A stretch of DNA of 47,883 nucleotides from Actinomycetota bacterium (GTDB lineage Bacteria; Actinomycetota; Thermoleophilia; RBG-16-64-13). Every line of letters begins with the position of its first letter. Positions within the stretch are counted from its first letter, which is position 1. Location: assembly GCA_012514635.1 (NCBI GenBank), contig JAAYZX010000059.1, positions 1 to 47,883 of the forward strand, in the 5' to 3' direction. The notes under the pieces were generated by a model, which saw only the letters and a program-made list of their open reading frames with translations, did no database searches and was not told where the DNA came from. The position numbers were made by a program, and so were the translations under genes. This document shows, one piece after another, positions 182 through 10,642 of the stretch.

Positions 182-784
182 ATGATCGGCATGGAACTTG
201 TGGCACCCCCCGAACACCTCGTGGAGCCCACAGAGCATGAAATCAAGCTTCTGGCCATGCGCGCCGCGCGCAGTGACCCTGAGGCTTTCACGGCCCTGTA
301 CCGCATGTATTTCGCCCAAGTCTATACATTCATCAGTTTTCGTATCTCCGGCCATGAAGATACTGAAGACCTAGCGAATACGGTGTTCGAGAAGGCCCTG
401 GCCGCGATTGCACGGTACCAGCCCAAGCCCGCACAATTCTCCACCTGGCTCTACACCATCGCCAAGAACTGCATCATCGACCACTACCGCAAGCGACGCC
501 TTCCCGTTGACAGCGAGATGGAACCCGAGGACACGGCCCATCAGGACCCAGACGGAGACCCTGAGCTCCGCATGCTGATGGAGGAGCGCAAACGCACTCT
601 GCGGGAGGCGCTCCGTTATCTCACTTCGGATCAGCGCGAGGTAATTGAGTGCCGCTTCTTCTTCGAGCTCTCCGTTCAGGAGACGGCTATGGCCATGAAC
701 CGAACGGAGGGGGCCGTCAAGGCCCTTCAGTTTCGGGCGCTGGAGAACCTGCACCACCTACTCACGGAGGACGCGTTCAACTGA
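182..784 (+). CDS. ECF-type RNA polymerase sigma-70 family factor
   Basis: 200-aa ORF with region 2 (DPEAFTALYRMYFAQVYTFISFRI...EDLANTVFEKALAAIARYQP...FSTWLYTIAKNCIIDHYRKRR) and region 4 HTH (LTSDQREVIECRFFFELSVQETAMAMNRTEGAVKALQFRALENL). Start may be 182 or the in-frame ATG at 191. Confidence 0.93.
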   Translation: MIGMELVAPPEHLVEPTEHEIKLLAMRAARSDPEAFTALYRMYFAQVYTFISFRISGHEDTEDLANTVFEKALAAIARYQPKPAQFSTWLYTIAKNCIIDHYRKRRLPVDSEMEPEDTAHQDPDGDPELRMLMEERKRTLREALRYLTSDQREVIECRFFFELSVQETAMAMNRTEGAVKALQFRALENLHHLLTEDAFN

Positions 785-829: not shown

Positions 830-1336
830 TCAAACTCCACCGGTCGCCTTAGAAAGATAGGTTTCAGTCCCGCAATACGGACACTTGACCAAGCCCTTCC
901 CCGCAAGCTCCACCGCACCTCCGCAGTTTGGGCATACCCCTTCCTTTATGTTGGCCGCCTCGGCAGAGACAAGCTCACCTTTCTCCCAGTTCACGTAGCC
1001 GGTGAAGAGGTCCTTTCCAATGAGATCATAAATATATTCGCGAATTTCGTCGCGGGTGGAGTCCGTTTCGATCGCCAAGTCGGCGACTCCCACCCGGCCG
1101 CGGGTCATCACCGAGTTCAGTATGGTGCGTTCCTTGTCCACCCTACTTTGCTCTTTTATCTCGCCCTTGGAACGAAGCAGCAGATATAGCCCTACCGCAA
1201 TGAATGGTAGACAGAAAAGCACAAATCCCAGTGTGACACCCGTCACCGACTTTCCGGAGGCCAGTCCAGAACCGAGCCAGATGCCGACACCCGCACCAAC
1301 CACAATCAGCACAATGCCCATGATTCTGCTCTGCAT
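830..1336 (-). CDS. Membrane protein with two N-terminal TM helices and a C-terminal zinc ribbon
   Basis: 168 aa; hydrophobic N-terminus, then a winged-helix-like stretch (NSVMTRGRVGVADLAIETDSTRDEIREYIYDLIGKDLF) and CPNCGGAVELAGKGLVKCPYCG. Confidence 0.8.
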   Translation of the reverse strand: MQSRIMGIVLIVVGAGVGIWLGSGLASGKSVTGVTLGFVLFCLPFIAVGLYLLLRSKGEIKEQSRVDKERTILNSVMTRGRVGVADLAIETDSTRDEIREYIYDLIGKDLFTGYVNWEKGELVSAEAANIKEGVCPNCGGAVELAGKGLVKCPYCGTETYLSKATGGV

Positions 1337-1362
1337 CGGGATGCTTCCTCCCTATGTTGGTC

Positions 1363-1398
1363 CGACGGCCGGGGGCCGCGTGCGGCCCCCGGCCGTCG
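1363..1398. terminator. GC-rich perfect hairpin (16-bp stem, 4-nt loop), candidate terminator or attenuator
   Basis: cgacggccgggggccg-cgtg-cggcccccggccgtcg, directly after the stop of the 1400-3238 gene and before the next operon gene. No clear U-tract. Confidence 0.6.
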
Positions 1399-1399
1399 C

Positions 1400-3238
1400 T
1401 TACCCCGCTCGGAACCCTCCTCCGCCACCACCACCGGAGAAGCCGCCACCAAAACCTCCACCTCCGCCCCCAAACGCTCCCCGTCCCGACCCCGAACTGG
1501 ACGGAGCCGAGGTCAAAGTATTGGAAACGTTGTTCAGCCCCGAGAACAAACTATCCGAAATGGAGTCAAGACTGAAACCGCCGCCGCCCATGGGAAGCGT
1601 CCCGTCGGTTGTTCCGCCCGCAGCGCGCCCGGTCCCGCTCAAACCGCCAGTATAAGTAGGGATGAAGACCGGATGGTACCAGGTAGGCGCGGGAACCTGC
1701 ATATCCTGGAACCTCCGCACCCAATCCTTCTCCACCCGGAACGCGATGGCGTAAGGAAGGTACTTCTCAAAGGTCTCTTTGGCCGAAGACATATCTTGGA
1801 AGCGGGTGAGGTCTCGTAGGTAGTTGCGAAACGCCTCCCACTTCTTTGTCTCTTCCGCCCCCTTCGCCGTACGCTGAGGCATTTTGGATGAGAAGACAAA
1901 AACGATGACTACCGACACAATGGAACCAAACGCCCAGTAACCCCAGCCGGCGATATCATACGTAGCCATAAGGAAACTGAGGCCTCCCAGCACAATCGCC
2001 GCGCCGATGGCTATGCTCACCCATCTCTGCCTAACCTTCTGCGGATTCCCATAGAAGAAGCCACGCGAAGTCACCTCGTTATAGATGGCGTTGCAAATGG
2101 GTTGAACGTGCTTATAGAAATGGTTCTTGAGCTCCTTAGTGCTCACGGAATCCTTGTCCTTGGAAAAAAGTGCGTTGGCCACCTTCAGCTCAAAGCCGCT
2201 CAGGTCAAACTCCTTGAGCTTCCGAAACGTCATAATCGATTTGGTGAACAACTTACCTTCTTTATCTTCCACCATGTCGATGTACCCGCGTCGTGCCAGA
2301 TCCACGATAGTGGCCGTCACCTCAGTGACATTCGCCTCCTCGTCGATCAGCGCGCCGGCCAGGCCGGGTGACAGATCAGACGGCGGTTCGGACACATATT
2401 TGGCGTGCGCCCCTGATGGGTCGTCGCGTCCGCGCTTCCGCCAGATAAGAAGCATACCTAAGAATACCGCAATCGGCAGTACAAAGCCCGCCCGCGGGAC
2501 CACAGCCGCAAGAACCCGCTTAAACGTCCACTCAAAGTTGACGACACCTTTGGGGAAACCCACAACCACCCAGTAGTTCGTGTGAGGAGGAACCAGACCC
2601 GCTTCAAAAACCGCCTCACCCGCAGCCGGCGTACTGTAGTCTCGGTCTACGGAGGAACCGGTATTGAGAGCTACAGTCATTTGCTCAGGAGGAACCGGTT
2701 CCGGCAGCTTCACAGTAGCCCTGACACGACCGATAGGCACAGGAGTGTCGGCATCAAAGACATACCAGCGTAGCTCATCACCTTCATCAAAGAAGAACAC
2801 GGAACCCGACGCCCTATAGCGAAACACCCAAGTGGCAGACGCATCCGTCAAAGCAAAGTTGACCTTGATGATCCGGCTGTCTCCCTCCATGAAGGTCTCC
2901 CAGGTACCGGCTGCGCTTCCCTGGGGGAGAGGGCGGCCGTCCTGCAGCACCTCAATATCCGTTAGAGATTCCAGATTTTTAGTTGGGATGACCCTCCCCA
3001 CGTACGAATACGAGCCTTCGAAGGTAAAGGTGACCGTTTCCTCCACCCAAACGGAGCTGTTCTTCTGGACGTCGAGCACCACATCCATACTGTCGATGCG
3101 CCAAGATTTGGCTTGAGCCTCTGCGGTCGGTATCAAGATCAGCACGGCTACGGTCAAGAGCATAAGAAACATGAGCAGGCGGCGCCGCGATGCGGCGCCG
3201 CCTCCAAAACCACGATACGTTGACTTGAGCACAGTCAT
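1400..3238 (-). CDS. DUF2207-family membrane protein
   Basis: 612 aa; signal/TM start, WRIDSMDVVLDVQKNSSVWVEETVTFTFEGSYSYVGRVIP beta domain, TM segments, Gly-rich C-terminal tail (GGGGGFGGGFSGGGGGGGFRAG), typical of DUF2207. Confidence 0.88.
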   Translation of the reverse strand: MTVLKSTYRGFGGGAASRRRLLMFLMLLTVAVLILIPTAEAQAKSWRIDSMDVVLDVQKNSSVWVEETVTFTFEGSYSYVGRVIPTKNLESLTDIEVLQDGRPLPQGSAAGTWETFMEGDSRIIKVNFALTDASATWVFRYRASGSVFFFDEGDELRWYVFDADTPVPIGRVRATVKLPEPVPPEQMTVALNTGSSVDRDYSTPAAGEAVFEAGLVPPHTNYWVVVGFPKGVVNFEWTFKRVLAAVVPRAGFVLPIAVFLGMLLIWRKRGRDDPSGAHAKYVSEPPSDLSPGLAGALIDEEANVTEVTATIVDLARRGYIDMVEDKEGKLFTKSIMTFRKLKEFDLSGFELKVANALFSKDKDSVSTKELKNHFYKHVQPICNAIYNEVTSRGFFYGNPQKVRQRWVSIAIGAAIVLGGLSFLMATYDIAGWGYWAFGSIVSVVIVFVFSSKMPQRTAKGAEETKKWEAFRNYLRDLTRFQDMSSAKETFEKYLPYAIAFRVEKDWVRRFQDMQVPAPTWYHPVFIPTYTGGLSGTGRAAGGTTDGTLPMGGGGFSLDSISDSLFSGLNNVSNTLTSAPSSSGSGRGAFGGGGGGFGGGFSGGGGGGGFRAG

Positions 3239-3241
3239 CTC

Positions 3242-4384
3242 CTACGACGAAGTCCCACCTTGGCTCCCCTCGCCTGCTGGGGGTCCCTCAGGCGCAGGAG
3301 CGGAAGGAGATGCGGAAGCATCCTGAACGGGCGCTCCCAATTGCTGTCCACAGTTGGGGCAGAATTTGGAGGTGGCGGGCAGGGTAGTGCTGCATTTGGG
3401 GCAATTGATGGTGGCCTGAAGATTGTGTCCGCAGTTGGGGCAGAATTTGCCGTCCGCCGGTATGTCCGTGCCGCAATTGGGGCAGCGCATCTTCGGCTGA
3501 GCCCCCGAGGCCATAGCCTGCTGGAGCATACCGGGCAGCATCATGCCTAGACCTGCACCGGCGCCCAACCCCAGACCGGTCGCGGCTGCGCCACCCAGGT
3601 TCGTTCCGCCGCCCTCAGTGCCGCCTTCGCCACCGGCACCGATATTGCCGAGCGCTTGTGCGGCCTTGAACTGGAAGTAACGATCCATGCCGCCAACCGC
3701 CTCCATACCGGAGCGCTCGTCGATACGTTTCTGCACATCTTCGGGAGGTGTGATGGCGTTGATGATGAAGTCGGCAACCGAGAGACCGTACTGGTAGAAG
3801 TCATCTTTGGTGCGCGCCTTCAGACCGGCACCCAACTCATCGAAGTAACGCGGCAGATCCAATACCGAATCCAGATTCTCTCCCAATAGATCCGCCAGAC
3901 GTCCCACTATCACGCCGCGTAGGAAGTCCTCGATAGCGATGTTGGTGTAGATAGCCCTAGTTCCCACAAGTTTCTCGACGAAGAGCTTGGGGTCTACGAT
4001 TTGCATGGTATAGATACCGTGCGCGCGCAGGCGGATCATCTTGAACTCGGAATCCCGGAAAAGGATGGGCTCCGCCGTGCCCCACTTCAGATCCGTGAAC
4101 ACCGCTCGGTTGACGAAATAGACTTCCGAACGAAATGGTGAATCACCAAACAGAGGAGTGGTGATGAGTGCAGTTAGAAGAGGGATGTTGAGTGTGGTCA
4201 GCGTGTGGCGTCCGGGACCAAAGACATCCAATGCCTTACCGTCACGATAGAACACCGCCCACTGATTCTCTCGCACAATCATCTGCGAACCAATTTTGAA
4301 CTCACCGGATCCGTGCTCGGGAATACGGTGACACATCTCGTTGCCGGCTTGATCGATATACTCGATCAGATTCATGAGAGCCAT
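3242..4384 (-). CDS. SPFH/virion-core (YdjI-like) domain protein with C-terminal double zinc ribbon
   Basis: 380 aa; N-terminal SPFH-like sequence (NLIEYIDQAGNEMCHRIPEHGSGEFKIGSQMIVRENQWAVFYRDGKALDVFGPGRHTLTTLNIPLL) and two ribbons (CPNCGTDIPADGKFCPNCG; CPKCSTTLPATSKFCPNCG). Confidence 0.88.
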   Translation of the reverse strand: MALMNLIEYIDQAGNEMCHRIPEHGSGEFKIGSQMIVRENQWAVFYRDGKALDVFGPGRHTLTTLNIPLLTALITTPLFGDSPFRSEVYFVNRAVFTDLKWGTAEPILFRDSEFKMIRLRAHGIYTMQIVDPKLFVEKLVGTRAIYTNIAIEDFLRGVIVGRLADLLGENLDSVLDLPRYFDELGAGLKARTKDDFYQYGLSVADFIINAITPPEDVQKRIDERSGMEAVGGMDRYFQFKAAQALGNIGAGGEGGTEGGGTNLGGAAATGLGLGAGAGLGMMLPGMLQQAMASGAQPKMRCPNCGTDIPADGKFCPNCGHNLQATINCPKCSTTLPATSKFCPNCGQQLGAPVQDASASPSAPAPEGPPAGEGSQGGTSS

Positions 4385-4387
4385 ACG

Positions 4388-4903
4388 CTACCTCCCAGCG
4401 CCCGTGACGACGTGGTCGCGCTGGGCAAAGAATTCGTCCAATGCCTCCACACGCTCGTCCAGAATATCGATGTCCGCCCGCAAAGACGGGCTGTCCGCCC
4501 TTAAGGACTTGGCCAACTGCTCTATAGCCACAGCCGCCTCCTGAGCCTGTGCATCGAGCTGATAGATGCTGTCCAGGACACCCTGATCCACTTTGACCGC
4601 ATCAAACCATCCTGCGTAACCGTAATCTGCAAAAAGGAACCGATCCTTGACCGTTCTGAGCTTACGCGCCACCGTGTCCACAATCCCCAGAATATCGAGT
4701 TTGCCGCTGCGGCTGATGTCCAACTCCAGATTCTCTAGAGCCCGTCTACCGAACTCCAGACGTTCTGCCACGAAGGTCCGCTGGATCTTGTCGGCCTCCC
4801 GGCGCAACTCCTTCTGCTTGTACCCTTTGTAGCCGGGTACGCGTTCGGCGGCACGCTCGAACCAGTTCTTGCTCTCCTCGATCCTGGCTCCGATGTCACC
4901 CAT
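4388..4903 (-). CDS. Small soluble coiled-coil protein of unknown function
   Basis: 171 aa starting MGDIGARIEESKNWFERAAERVPGYKGYKQKELRREADKIQ. The ATG at 4903 fits operon spacing; the upstream part of the provided 4388-5269 ORF overlaps the 4920-5621 gene and is probably not translated. Confidence 0.78.
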   Translation of the reverse strand: MGDIGARIEESKNWFERAAERVPGYKGYKQKELRREADKIQRTFVAERLEFGRRALENLELDISRSGKLDILGIVDTVARKLRTVKDRFLFADYGYAGWFDAVKVDQGVLDSIYQLDAQAQEAAVAIEQLAKSLRADSPSLRADIDILDERVEALDEFFAQRDHVVTGAGR

Positions 4904-4919
4904 GAACCCTCCCTCTCGA

Positions 4920-5621
4920 TCACGCCACGAGTCCGTCGAACTCGCGCAACAAAAAGCGCCACCCCGAGTCTCGCACGTATCTCCTATCGTACACGGCGGG
5001 GAGAAAGAGCAGATCTCCTTCGCCGACGTCCACATGGTAATCGATCCGGCGCAGATCAATGCTACCCCGGTTCTCCACCGCCAGATACACATAATGGGCC
5101 ACCGCCTCGGCGTCACGGCGGCCCAGCACGACGGGAGACACCGTACCAAACCCCGGCCCTCCTTCGTCCTTCCCTGCATCCACAGAAACGACGCCTTCGT
5201 GCAAGAGAGACAATAAGGGAACCTCCCACGGAATCCTCTCCTCCAGAGAAAGCACAGGCTGTGCCTCAACCAAACCGGCTCCCAACTGTTGCACCACTAG
5301 GCGACCGAAGGCAAAGGCCGGCACATATAGAAACGGCGGACCAGGCGCCGCGGCACGTTTCACGCCATCCCACACATGCTCCGGTTGCGCTCCCGAACGC
5401 GTGTCCTTACTGCGAACCTCAACGCTCGCCGCAAATTGCCACACAGCCAGGTACCTCACCACCGGAGGAGGAGCCGATTTCGTAGTTAGTGACGCAGTCA
5501 ATGGTTTCAGTTCTACAAGCCGCTCTGCAGCCGCCTCGAACGCAAGACCGCAGGCCCGGCACAGATACACCACGGCATTTGGGGGAGCATCTAATCTCCC
5601 CCTGCACCGTGTGCATACCAT
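4920..5621 (-). CDS. Zinc-ribbon protein of unknown function
   Basis: 233 aa; N-terminal CTRCRGRLDAPPNAVVYLCRACGLAF; in operon context with short spacing. Confidence 0.75.
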   Translation of the reverse strand: MVCTRCRGRLDAPPNAVVYLCRACGLAFEAAAERLVELKPLTASLTTKSAPPPVVRYLAVWQFAASVEVRSKDTRSGAQPEHVWDGVKRAAAPGPPFLYVPAFAFGRLVVQQLGAGLVEAQPVLSLEERIPWEVPLLSLLHEGVVSVDAGKDEGGPGFGTVSPVVLGRRDAEAVAHYVYLAVENRGSIDLRRIDYHVDVGEGDLLFLPAVYDRRYVRDSGWRFLLREFDGLVA

Positions 5622-5631
5622 TTCTATAAGA

Positions 5632-6654
5632 TCAGTGGGAGAAGGGTGCGTGATATTCCACCTCTCGTATCAGACGAAACCGCCAATACACTCCAACCGT
5701 CAACGCCACGATCACTGCACCGACATAGACTACGATCTCCCTGGCGTTTTCCCAACCGGCCCAAACCCAAACTACCACTCCCAAGGCAGCAGCCAGCGCA
5801 ACATACGAGCCGAGGAGTACCACAATGCCCCGACGGTTGTCGGCGGGCGCGCGCGCTGAGTGAACGGTCCCGTATCTGCCATCAATTGTGATCTCGTACC
5901 GACGCCCCCTATACGTGTACTGCAAAAACCAGAAGGGATAGTAGAGGAGAACAATTGCTTCCCGAAGCAAGAAAAGTTTGACCGATCCTGCCGTCCCCAT
6001 GGGTGGTCTCAGGAATGCCCGCCGGGCATCTGCCATTACAAGCTCGCAATCGTCGTTGTTATCGAGAACCGCCGCGCCTTCTTCGAGTTCCCCGGCAGAA
6101 TACGGCAGCGCGAAATCGCGTCCAGAAACCTGCGGTCTACCTATTCCCAGCGCCGCCAGATCTGTGGCCGCTCGATAGAATCTCCTCTCCGTGAACAACC
6201 CCTCCTGGACGCCTTCTTCTATCATCTTGATAACGATGTACTCATCATCACCCTGACGGACCAACTCCTGTCGCGCTCTAAACTTGCGACCAAACTCCCA
6301 TCCTACAACGTACGCCTTGGCTTCCCAAATAGGAACATACAATAGATGGGCATCCACCACCACGGCTGAATCGATATCCGGAGGAGTGTCCGGGTTTTCC
6401 TGTAGCCACTTCTTGGCCAACCCTGCCGCACGAAGCCTCTCTACTCTCACTGGGAAATAGCGTCGAGGGACGCCTGGCGGCTGAGGGAGAAGGAAGGCAC
6501 TGCCGCAACGTAGGCACTCCAGCCTACGCTCTCCATCCTGTGCAGCCAGAGATCCCGCGCAGTTGGGGCACGATAACGAACGAAGCGCAGGGGGCACCAT
6601 CTGCGGCCTCCCTAAAGGCAATATCTCCACTGCCGACACCGGCGTTTCATCCAT
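5632..6654 (-). CDS. Zinc-ribbon membrane protein of unknown function
   Basis: 340 aa; CPNCAGSLAAQDGERRLECLRCGSAFLLP, LLYYPFWFLQYTYRGRRYEITIDG, and two C-terminal TM helices. Confidence 0.8.
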   Translation of the reverse strand: MDETPVSAVEILPLGRPQMVPPALRSLSCPNCAGSLAAQDGERRLECLRCGSAFLLPQPPGVPRRYFPVRVERLRAAGLAKKWLQENPDTPPDIDSAVVVDAHLLYVPIWEAKAYVVGWEFGRKFRARQELVRQGDDEYIVIKMIEEGVQEGLFTERRFYRAATDLAALGIGRPQVSGRDFALPYSAGELEEGAAVLDNNDDCELVMADARRAFLRPPMGTAGSVKLFLLREAIVLLYYPFWFLQYTYRGRRYEITIDGRYGTVHSARAPADNRRGIVVLLGSYVALAAALGVVVWVWAGWENAREIVVYVGAVIVALTVGVYWRFRLIREVEYHAPFSH

Positions 6655-7393
6655 ATCGACGCACCAGAAACATCACCAGAGGAAAGAGCCCGGCTCCTGT
6701 GACGACTATCGCTGTCAGCTTCAGAGCCAGGCCGGGAACGAACAATGCCTCCGAGAACAGGAGGGCAACCACCCCAGCTGCTATCACCCGTTCGCCTACG
6801 ATTTCGCGGCGTACGGGTCGCCGATTGGAAAGCGGGCTTCCACCTGCGGCCGGAATAACGCCCGAATACTGGTTACCTCGGTACGAATACTGCAAAGGAT
6901 AGTAGAGTCGTTTCTCGATCAGGATGTCGTGGACGCCCGCGTCGGCAGCCAATGGGTGAAGCGCGTCACGGACCAGCGAGGCATCCACCCAGTTGGGAAT
7001 CGGATCGGTTTCCGCAGTAGATCTCATGTCGGCCGGTACAGACGACAGCCGGACCATTTCAGGCGCCGACACCGGGTCCAGCGGCATCACCACATCTTTG
7101 TCCCTACGGCGCACGCGCAGGAAGGCGACAGATTCTGCCGGTCCCACGTACACCGTGCTGCGACCTGCTACGTCCGCAGCAAAAGTGGGGCCCGCCAGCC
7201 AGGCCAACGCCAGCTCGCGGGCCCCGTCATTACTAAACCTAGGGATTTCCTCCAAGTAGTGTAGAGGCACTCCCTCCTGTGCATGAAGAGTCGCCCCGCA
7301 CCATGAGCAGGAAAAAACGGTGGCATTCCGCGGCACGACCAATGGCGCTCCGCACTGCGGACAAGACGTACGCCGCACATCGTCCGATCCCAT
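6647..7393 (-). CDS. Zinc-ribbon membrane protein, apparent paralog of the neighbouring 5632-6654 product
   Basis: 248 aa; CPQCGAPLVVPRNATVFSCSWCGATL, RLYYPLQYSYRGNQYSGVIPA, and C-terminal TM helices; overlaps the downstream gene by 8 nt. Confidence 0.8.
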   Translation of the reverse strand: MGSDDVRRTSCPQCGAPLVVPRNATVFSCSWCGATLHAQEGVPLHYLEEIPRFSNDGARELALAWLAGPTFAADVAGRSTVYVGPAESVAFLRVRRRDKDVVMPLDPVSAPEMVRLSSVPADMRSTAETDPIPNWVDASLVRDALHPLAADAGVHDILIEKRLYYPLQYSYRGNQYSGVIPAAGGSPLSNRRPVRREIVGERVIAAGVVALLFSEALFVPGLALKLTAIVVTGAGLFPLVMFLVRRYG

Positions 7394-7399
7394 ACGCTT

Positions 7400-8530
7400 C
7401 TACTTGTAGCGTAGCAACGCCGCAATCCCACCCATATCGTGAAGCAGGTCCACCCGCTCCACAACTTCTACTTCCGCTCCTTGCAGTATGGCTTGACGTA
7501 CCGCTTCTCCCAGAATGTCATCCAAGTATATCGTTGGGCCGCCGCACGCCGGGCAGGCAGCCTCCTCTGTAACCCTAATCAAACCTTCCTGCATACACAT
7601 ACAACCCGGCGGACGATGGCCACGCTCCACCAGTAAAATCTGAACCTGTCCCAACGCCAGAGCCTGCATGGTCTGGTCGAACCCAGCGACACCTAGGCCC
7701 TGCGGACCCAATCCCTCGTGCACGCGCGTGACGAGCCGGCTCTGTTCGCCGATTCTGGCGTCGTATATGGCCTCTCGCGCCGCCACCAATAACTGGTTCA
7801 GGCTGGCCGACGCATCGCAAGGGATCTCCGCAACCACTTTCGCGTTGGTACGCGCCGGCAATTGTCTACAGAACTTGACCGCTATCTCGTGCTGTCCACA
7901 GATGGCCACGCGACGCACGCCTGTCTCTTCCAATAGCCTATCTAGTGCCTGGCCCACATCCTTGAAGTGCTGATCCACAAGAGACTCTTGGCGGGCGGCA
8001 GCGTAGTACTCCTTGACGGGAGCTTCGCCGGTCTCGCGATCACCCGAGCGGAGGTAGGGACCTTCGAAACTATCCTCCCGCGTCAGCTGCCACCAGTCCA
8101 CCAGGTAGATGCTGCTCTCGTCGCGGCTGACACGCACCACCAGAAAGGATTCCATCACGGCCATTGCATGGACCAACGGCCGGATGTATGGATGAGGTTC
8201 CACAATCAGCCGGTTCTGGAGGCGAAGTGGCAACTGAAGGTGTTCGAACACCCCTTGCGACCCGTCGGCTACCACCACTAGTCCCTGCGTCCGCTGCTCT
8301 ACCTCATAGTTGAGGACTTCCAGAACCCTCTGGAAGTCCTCCTCCAGAATACGTTTGTATTCTTTTTCAGGATTCCTCTCTTTGATGATTCGGTTGAACT
8401 CGCTATTCAGAAACGTAGGAGCCGTTTGACGCCAGTCGTCTAGACGACTGGTGGACAGGCTCACCGTGAGCATGAAGCCCCTCTCGTTATGGTAGGCGGC
8501 AAGCGTCTTGAGATAGTCTCTATCGATCAT
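7400..8530 (-). CDS. Bacterial eRF1-like (baeRF/Vms1-type) protein
   Basis: 376 aa; N-terminal LTVSLSTSRLDDWRQTAPTFLNSEFNRII, middle VRRVAICGQHEIAVKFCRQLP...KVVAEIPCDASASLNQLL, and an eRF1 domain-3-like end (CPACGGPTIYLDDILGEAVRQAILQGAEVEVVERVDLLHDMGGIAALLRYK). No GGQ motif seen. Confidence 0.75.
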   Translation of the reverse strand: MIDRDYLKTLAAYHNERGFMLTVSLSTSRLDDWRQTAPTFLNSEFNRIIKERNPEKEYKRILEEDFQRVLEVLNYEVEQRTQGLVVVADGSQGVFEHLQLPLRLQNRLIVEPHPYIRPLVHAMAVMESFLVVRVSRDESSIYLVDWWQLTREDSFEGPYLRSGDRETGEAPVKEYYAAARQESLVDQHFKDVGQALDRLLEETGVRRVAICGQHEIAVKFCRQLPARTNAKVVAEIPCDASASLNQLLVAAREAIYDARIGEQSRLVTRVHEGLGPQGLGVAGFDQTMQALALGQVQILLVERGHRPPGCMCMQEGLIRVTEEAACPACGGPTIYLDDILGEAVRQAILQGAEVEVVERVDLLHDMGGIAALLRYK

Positions 8531-8603
8531 TGACGGCCCTTTCCGGCATACGAGGTGACCAGGATGATTTGCGGAGCAACAGGCACCGCCCGGAGGGGAC
8601 GGC

Positions 8604-8867
8604 TCATTCCCTGGACTGCGTTCCGGTGTAAGACTCTTCCGGCAAAGACCCTTCCTCTGCCTGGTCCGCTATCGACTGCTCACGACGGTACCGCTCTTCT
8701 CTCTCACGGAAGCGGTCCAGAAGACCAGATTTTGCCTTGTCGGCCGCTCGATGGTCCATACTCAGCATCCCCGTCTTCGATATGGAGGACTGAAGCTTTT
8801 CCGTTGGGGTGGTAGGACGCTCTTCATCTGAAGAACGAACGTTACGCTCCACCTTTTTGTCGGCCAT
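8604..8867 (-). CDS. Small highly charged protein, first gene of the minus-strand operon
   Basis: 87 aa, MADKKVERNVRSSDEERPTTPTEKLQSS...; strong Shine-Dalgarno AAGGAGGAAACATG upstream. Confidence 0.6.
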   Translation of the reverse strand: MADKKVERNVRSSDEERPTTPTEKLQSSISKTGMLSMDHRAADKAKSGLLDRFREREERYRREQSIADQAEEGSLPEESYTGTQSRE

Positions 8868-9136
8868 GTTTCCTCCTTGGTTCCCTTACCGCCGGGTATC
8901 CCCCGGCCCGGCGTGTGGCACCAACTGTCATAAATCTCATACCCACGGCACAAATGCGCCTAAACGACAGCACCCCAGCTCAACTATAGTTTTGGCGCGG
9001 ACAGATGGCTCCTTATCCATCATGACATAATCACTTAAAGACAATCTACCCACCGGCGGCGCGGATCGCAGCGCACGCATCCCGCCACCCGTGAACTGTT
9101 GCGGGTAAGGAAGTCGCCCGGGAGGACCGGCATACG

Positions 9137-10642
9137 ATGCACGTAGTTGTCATAGGCGCAGGGCCGGCCGGACTCGCGGCCGGCCGCTACGCGCTGGCAC
9201 AGGGGTTCGACTGCACAGTGGTGGAACGCCATACCGCCGCAGGCGGCTTAGCGGCAACATGGCGGCGCGGCGACTTTGTTATCGAGGGAGGGGTGCGCCT
9301 CTTAACGGGGGTAAACCCGGGCCTGCAGGCATACGATCTCTACCACGATCTCGGCCTGCTTCCGGGTCTCCCGCTGACGGAACTTTCAACCCTATGCCGC
9401 TTTCTCGACGAACGAACGGATCGGGCTATAGAGATCTCACGCAACATGGATCGTCTGGCACTGGAGCTCCGACAGCTGTCGCCCGACGATGCTGAACACG
9501 TGGAAGATCTGATCAGGGGAACCAAACGCATGGGCCTCCTCGATTGGGCCAAGATGGAGCGACCACTGGAAATTATGACCACCGGCGACCGCTTGAGGCA
9601 AACCTGGCGGCTTCGACACCAGCTCCGTTACTTCGGAGGCATATTCGTGCAGCCGGTAAGTGCATTGGTTGCCAAGATCAGTCACCCGCTCATCAAATCA
9701 CTTCTGCTGACGCTGTGCGCGCCCGAGACTCCTCTCTGGTACCTCATGATGCTACTCAGTACCTTTTCGCACGGTCAGAAGGCCCTGCTTACCGAGGGTT
9801 CCATCAGTTTGGTGGGCAGGATGGTGACAAGCTTGGAAGAGGCCGGCGGAAAACTGGAGACAAACTGCTGTGTCAAAGAGATCCTAACAGAACAAACGGC
9901 ACACGGCGATAGAGCCGTAGGCGTACGTCTGGCAAACGAGGAGGTGCTGGAGGCCGACTACGTTGTCTCTGCCGCCGATGCTTACTCCACTCTGTACGAG
10001 ATGCTCCACGGAAAGTATCTCGATTCTGCCGCAAAGACACGCTTCCGCGAATGGAAACTTTGCAGACCAATGATACAGGTGAGCCTGGGCGTAGCACGAC
10101 GCTTCACCGGTGAGACCCCTCTAAAGGTGCTCATGTTACGACGCCCCTTCTTTGTAGGCGAAACCACCGTTGAAAACCTGTCGCTCAGGATCTTCAACTA
10201 CGCACCCCATTTCGCTCCGCCTCGGAAAACTATGATACAGGCATCCTTCGAGACTTCGTGGTCCCATTGGAACGCCCTCGCCGAAGGCGATCGTTCCGGC
10301 TACGAAGCGGAGAAGGAGCGCGTAGCCAAAGAGGTGATCCGCCGCCTCGAGCTTCACTACCCCGGCATCTCACGCCAGGTGGAGTTGGTGGATGTCGCCA
10401 CTCCCTATACCACGTGGCGTTACACACGAAATCTGCAGGGCGCCAACGAAGCCTGGCTGCCTATCCCAGAAGTGATCGTGAGCGCGATTCCACGCACTCT
10501 GCCTGGGCTTGCCCATCTGGTTCTCGCCGGTCATTGGGTGGCGCCGGGCAATGGTGTTGCAGGAAGCATCCTCTCCGGCAGGCACGCCGTCCAACTGATA
10601 TGCCATCAGAGTCAGACTCCGTTCCACAATATCCGCACTTAA
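9137..10642 (+). CDS. FAD-dependent oxidoreductase, phytoene desaturase (CrtI)-like NAD(P)/FAD family
   Basis: 501 aa; Rossmann motif VVIGAGPAGLAAGRYALAQGFDCTVVERHTAAGGLAATW and C-terminal VLAGHWVAPGNGVAGSILSGRHAV. Confidence 0.85.
   Translation: MHVVVIGAGPAGLAAGRYALAQGFDCTVVERHTAAGGLAATWRRGDFVIEGGVRLLTGVNPGLQAYDLYHDLGLLPGLPLTELSTLCRFLDERTDRAIEISRNMDRLALELRQLSPDDAEHVEDLIRGTKRMGLLDWAKMERPLEIMTTGDRLRQTWRLRHQLRYFGGIFVQPVSALVAKISHPLIKSLLLTLCAPETPLWYLMMLLSTFSHGQKALLTEGSISLVGRMVTSLEEAGGKLETNCCVKEILTEQTAHGDRAVGVRLANEEVLEADYVVSAADAYSTLYEMLHGKYLDSAAKTRFREWKLCRPMIQVSLGVARRFTGETPLKVLMLRRPFFVGETTVENLSLRIFNYAPHFAPPRKTMIQASFETSWSHWNALAEGDRSGYEAEKERVAKEVIRRLELHYPGISRQVELVDVATPYTTWRYTRNLQGANEAWLPIPEVIVSAIPRTLPGLAHLVLAGHWVAPGNGVAGSILSGRHAVQLICHQSQTPFHNIRT

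Follow-up and report, generated by a model that had tools for sequence, protein, structure and literature searches.

A conserved nine-gene operon of uncultured Actinomycetota that probably joins a Balon-like factor and a YdjI-like membrane scaffold under a sigmaB-type promoter

The window analysed here is the whole stretch of 47,883 nucleotides (nt) of contig JAAYZX010000059.1 from an Actinomycetota genome (GenBank assembly GCA_012514635.1), and its subject is a putative stress operon of nine genes, termed A to I in the direction of their strand. All nine open reading frames were confirmed, each on the minus strand (Table 1), with intergenic gaps from A to I of 73, 6, -8, 10, 16, 3, 3 and 63 nt. 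The preliminary description of the window had placed nine minus-strand genes almost end to end. Its coordinates, strand and 8-nt overlap were correct, but only the seven genes B to H lie end to end, while A precedes them by 73 nt and I follows after 63 nt.

A Pfam search of the nine proteins assigned B to baeRF_family10, G to Band_7_1 (SPFH) followed by a double zinc ribbon, and H to the N- and C-terminal domains of DUF2207. The same search gave no family for A and F, and nothing beyond zinc ribbons for C, D, E and I. Paired CxxC motifs were found in C, D, E, G and I, the four of G making up its double ribbon, and transmembrane-like segments in C, D, H and I. The preliminary description had thus been right in counting at least five ribbon products and, besides DUF2207, at least three other membrane proteins. 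None of the PADLOC models matched any of the nine proteins, and an anti-phage defence system was rejected on that ground.

Table 1. Features of the operon and its borders (window coordinates).
Feature	Coordinates	Strand	Description
sigmaB-type promoter	8939..8965	-	-35 GTTTAG, 15-nt spacer, -10 GGGTAT; 71 nt before the start of A; 11/12 consensus matches
Gene A	8604..8867	-	Small and rich in charged residues, probably disordered; in every case the gene just before B; no known family
Gene B	7400..8530	-	baeRF family 10 / Balon-like; three-domain aeRF1 architecture; aRF1-type zinc ribbon in domain 3
Gene C	6647..7393	-	N-terminal zinc ribbon, globular domain, two C-terminal transmembrane helices; paralogue of D
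Gene D	5632..6654	-	N-terminal zinc ribbon, long beta-rich domain, two C-terminal transmembrane helices
Gene E	4920..5621	-	N-terminal zinc ribbon and soluble domain
Gene F	4388..4903	-	171-aa helical-bundle protein; constant partner of G
Gene G	3242..4384	-	SPFH (Band_7_1), Gly-rich linker, double zinc ribbon; YdjI-type; PF13421 196 bits, PF12773 DZR
Gene H	1400..3238	-	DUF2207 membrane protein, Gly-rich tail; PF20990 168 bits, PF09972 66 bits
GC-rich hairpin between H and I	1363..1398	-	Perfect 16-bp hairpin; H-I gap fold -53 kcal/mol; no T run
Gene I	830..1336	-	Two transmembrane helices, possible winged-helix segment (weak, E=0.22), zinc ribbon
Sigma-70 gene of the extracytoplasmic function (ECF) type	182..784	+	Convergent with the operon end

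The operon was followed through a family of 18 genomes of uncultured, Thermoleophilia-affiliated Actinomycetota, all of them metagenome-assembled genomes (MAGs). Contig C41, which holds the window, belongs to a 2.34-Mb genome that is 98% complete, and the relatives of this genome were deposited as Gaiellales, Thermoleophilia or Actinobacteria, RBG_16_64_13 among them. Gene B is encoded in 17 of the 18 genomes, the sole exception being 64% complete. All nine genes occur in order at seven of the 17 loci, and at 12 of the 17 the linked genes keep the same order. As for the departures, C is absent as a separate gene at three loci, C and D at one, and H and I at one; contig ends cut four loci, and in one genome (G014) A-B and C-G are found on different contigs. 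Because the order A to I recurs where B is only 46-67% identical to that of the window, it has been kept for long and is not a product of chance. The nine-gene operon is therefore real and conserved, as had been supposed earlier: homologues of its genes are not scattered, and their order recurs in the family genomes. More distant homologues of B in the class (23-27% identity) are not accompanied by C-I.

Beyond the family, a profile of F was searched in the GTDB genomes and returned 63 loci, many of them on short contigs; since the survey was anchored on F, links between B and SPFH genes that lack F lie outside its reach. G accompanies F at 63 of 63 loci, in Thorarchaeota (L127) a few genes apart. 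Many Anaerolineae (Chloroflexota) have the order H-I-F-G, and two other families of Actinomycetota the order F-G-H, with I nearby in one of them. The F-G pair was also found in Coatesbacteria, Edwardsbacteria, a Bacillota MAG, and Bathy-, Nezha- and Thorarchaeota. At no F-profile locus outside the window's family was A, B, C or E found near F-G, and a D-like gene was seen there only in the Thorarchaeota. Hence, F-G-H-I is an independent core module, to which A-E became joined in the window's family, the only place where the A-E cassette was found.

The D-like zinc-ribbon protein of Thorarchaeota (L127:3408-4643, E about 1e-12) is encoded a few kb from F and G. A second DUF2207 gene, 37% identical to H, directly follows I in one family member (L038:2922-4763), and tandem DUF2207 genes were also seen in several Anaerolineae loci (L097, L098, L103, L116). 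In Bathyarchaeota and Nezhaarchaeota, a gene with an arrestin-N domain and a zinc ribbon stands close after F-G (L117:6032-8366 and L124:9953-13702). Such neighbourhoods, like the SPFH protein with zinc ribbon itself, resemble the archaeal SPFH-zinc ribbon loci of Meth_adaptin ESCRT systems (PMC10936438); in the window operon, Vps4 and ESCRT-III were not detected.

Upstream of A, the family shares the motif GTTTA-N15-GGGTA, a conserved sigmaB-type promoter that the preliminary description had missed. The published SigB consensus reads GTTTaa-N13-15-GGG(A/T)A(A/T) (PMC7824861). The strict pattern, which was framed after the alignment had been seen although it equals the textbook consensus, is present upstream of A at 12 of the 17 loci, and these account for 12 of its 13 matches in 633 kb strand-bases of family sequence. 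The remaining loci mostly carry near matches, with L035 having none. Inside the operon, no sigma-70-like promoter was found. A sigma factor of the SigB/F/G type with regions 2, 3 and 4 is encoded on contig C111 of the window genome (TIGR02980, 297.6 bits against a cut-off of 234). In Bacillus subtilis, the SigB regulon lists the Balon homologue yocB together with hpf (PMC7824861, PMC10901736). Co-regulation of a putative hibernation arm and a membrane arm is well supported by these sequence features.

The protein encoded by B in the window scored 66.3 bits against PF18854, a model matched by 16 of 16 family members. Its best NCBIfam matches were three models of ribosome hibernation factors, headed by NF052288 over residues 3-375. 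When a profile of the 16 members was compared with solved structures, Balon MSMEG_1130 of Mycobacterium smegmatis (8v9j) was matched at E=1.7e-8 over profile positions 87-380, and archaeal aRF1 was found as well. The GGQ motif is absent from the aligned place in all 16 members, where the sequence reads AARQ. The domain-3 cysteine motif noticed earlier is a C-x2-C...C-x2-C ribbon at the place of the aRF1 ribbon (Cys312, 315, 326 and 329 in 15 of 16), and the window copy is degenerate, with Glu315 in place of a Cys and an extra Cys310. Domain 3 is where Balon-type factors have a beta-hairpin that binds EF-Tu.

Helena-Bueno et al. (PMC10901736) showed that Balon homologues inhibit translation and are found in the ribosomal A site, and that their genes belong to stress operons. 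Like Balon of Psychrobacter, MSMEG_1130, Rv2629 and B. subtilis YocB, B has the full-length three-domain aeRF1-like architecture, lacks GGQ and sits in a stress-type gene context, and SigB control has been reported for yocB too. It differs from them in belonging to Pfam family 10 with a Gln retained in the catalytic-loop region, and in a family-wide aRF1-like four-Cys ribbon (15 of 16, the window copy being one Cys short). It further differs in adjoining SPFH, DUF2207 and zinc-ribbon membrane genes rather than RaiA, Hsp20 or HdeD; neither RaiA nor HPF is in the operon, and HPF is encoded elsewhere in 18 of the 18 family genomes. For B, a role as a Balon-type ribosome-hibernation factor is probably a better reading than one in quality control or rescue.

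For the membrane arm, C and D proved to be paralogues (hhalign 98.4%), and E is related to both mainly via its ribbon. In three genomes without a separate C (L041, L045 and L042), D bears an extra, C-like N-terminal zinc ribbon, which suggests a fusion with C or a remnant of it. B. subtilis YdjG has been described with the same layout, two ribbons before the domain and the transmembrane helices (PMC11237479). For the AlphaFold2 model of D (predicted local distance difference test, pLDDT, 76.9), no PDB structure matched at E below 0.09, and by sequence D, F and I matched only zinc ribbons or noise in the PDB. The AlphaFold2 model of F (pLDDT 79.8) consists of helices only; against the PDB, it found nothing at E<=0.001, and neither ESCRT-III nor PspA was among the 50 best matches. 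An identity of F with PspA/ESCRT-III was rejected, there being no PspA_IM30 sequence match, no fold match and no PspA in a search of the window genome.

The locus is best explained as a general-stress operon that induces ribosome hibernation and a YdjI-like membrane scaffold together, a reading to which we give a probability of roughly 0.6. Operon conservation, the homologies of B and G, the promoter motif and the sigma factor are computed results from which it starts. Under stress, SigB would act at the promoter upstream of A and switch on the whole operon. B, with A as its small partner, would enter the ribosomal A site and cause hibernation, as what is known of its family suggests. By the same kind of analogy, G would assemble as an SPFH scaffold beneath the membrane, with F as its constant soluble partner. 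H, I, C and D (with E) would anchor this scaffold by their transmembrane helices, zinc ribbons connecting the parts. Gene context is what suggests that F, G, H and I might form one complex and that C-E might join it. The two arms would then protect ribosomes and cell envelope simultaneously.

Several results weigh against this explanation. B reaches only 65 bits where the NCBIfam equivalog cut-offs demand 480; with a score so far below them, B counts as a relative and not as an established orthologue. Peptidyl hydrolysis is conceivable as well, since 14 of the 16 members have Gln181 close to where GGQ would stand. Genome-wide, the sigmaB pattern occurs at four sites compared with six for a reversed control, so that isolated sigmaB-like sites mean little, and the support for sigmaB is the positional conservation of the motif. 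In G014, A-B has a sigmaB site and C-G, on its separate contig, has none, while in L037, one of the seven loci with all nine genes, two unrelated genes split B from C. Because of this split and this insertion, C-I may have a promoter of its own.

A rival explanation would have B work physically with the membrane module: the SPFH/zinc-ribbon scaffold beneath the membrane (F-G-H-I with C-D-E) would recruit hibernating ribosomes or B itself, and the ribosomes, delivered or kept there by B, would be stored or protected. If so, ribosome storage and envelope maintenance would be physically coupled and induced by SigB as one unit. In this one family, B has long been closely linked to C-D-E and F-G-H-I, which fits such tethering, and the zinc ribbons of five neighbours and of B domain 3 could be common interaction or RNA-binding surfaces. 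Shared regulation accounts for the linkage equally, however, and F-G-H-I occurs without B in other lineages. The G014 split speaks against any physical link being obligatory, or shows at the least that the genes can become unlinked. We regard tethering as rather unlikely, and any physical coupling of the two arms is speculation. The preliminary description had proposed one membrane-associated stress or quality-control complex: the stress character and the set of membrane, SPFH and zinc-ribbon proteins hold, but a single complex is hypothetical, F-G-H-I being independent, A-E being joined to it in this family only, and A-B standing apart from C-G in G014.

The quality-control part of that proposal would require B to be an active peptidyl-tRNA hydrolase, that is, an alternative release or rescue factor in an operon for co-translational quality control of membrane proteins. 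A glutamine is well conserved in baeRF family 10, whose activity Burroughs and Aravind left undecided (PMC6514570), and Q181 follows an invariant R180 here; the membrane neighbours, too, would suit the rescue of stalled membrane-protein synthesis. Yet the glycines of GGQ are missing, L036 and L046 have V or H instead of the glutamine, and among characterised full-length relatives the hibernation factors stand closest. Nor did the Pfam search find a known ribosome quality-control partner among the nine proteins. A hydrolytic role of B is thus unlikely.

A still less likely explanation is that the operon is a phage-shock (PspA-YdjGHI) system with F in place of PspA. The parts are indeed similar: Band_7_1 with C-terminal ribbons (the B. 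subtilis protein matches the same Pfam model), zinc-ribbon transmembrane proteins, a further transmembrane protein and a short helical soluble protein beside the SPFH gene (PMC11237479). Moreover, PspA (PF04012) was found neither in the nine proteins nor in the 98% complete window genome. What speaks against substitution by F is the lack of a PspA_IM30 match and of any PspA or ESCRT-III fold among the PDB matches of its model. In seven family members, a PspA gene lies elsewhere in the genome, and H matches DUF2207 instead of TPM (YdjH). In contrast to pspA-ydjG-ydjH-ydjI, the window operon also includes the putative hibernation factor and has a sigmaB-type, not a sigmaW, promoter. The loose Psp/YdjI analogy drawn earlier accordingly stands for G, a Band_7_1 protein as in B. 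subtilis, but not for the coiled-coil F, which is not detectably PspA/ESCRT-III. In B. subtilis, YdjI, YdjG, YdjH and PspA form a membrane interaction network, in which YdjI and PspA depend on YdjG and YdjH to localise to the membrane (PMC8581546). This network might serve as a model of how the membrane arm works, without implying membership in it.

Mere shared descent of nine functionally unlinked genes, in keeping with every complete nine-gene case coming from one family, is very improbable, as the order and mostly short gaps persist where B differs at up to half its residues, and the linkage of F-G and of F-G-H-I extends across phyla with changes in order.

In the open-access literature, we found no papers on DUF2207 with SPFH or on baeRF with SPFH; other stress operons are known to contain hibernation factors, but we found no report there of one within a membrane-scaffold operon. 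The locus offers a link of ribosome dormancy with envelope stress that can be tested. The conserved F-G-H-I module is common to several bacterial phyla and partly to archaea, and through it YdjI-type SPFH proteins gain two partners, DUF2207 and an unnamed helical family. The Balon-like family of B, with its zinc ribbon of the aRF1 type, should be useful for tracing the path from archaeal release factors to bacterial dormancy factors.

Some features around the operon deserve mention. The hairpin between H and I is a possible attenuator or processing site. Similar stem-loops occur only in the nearest relatives L034 and L035, and a conserved terminator was rejected, the strong hairpin being limited to the window and these relatives. 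The ECF-type sigma-70 gene is probably outside the operon unit; it is found beside the operon, or beside A-B or G, in several relatives, and may be regulatory or merely a conserved neighbour. Elsewhere in the window genome, one of the four strict sigmaB-like sites (L165, G000:C24:54608-54632) lies about 38 nt upstream of a gene for a small protein (MESVYKIVEIIGTSETSWEDAAKNAVE) that looks dodecin-like by eye from its sequence. Upstream of the operon, a divergent gene resembling flavin adenine dinucleotide-dependent oxidoreductases (9137-10642, plus strand) is shared as a neighbour only with the closest relative, L034.

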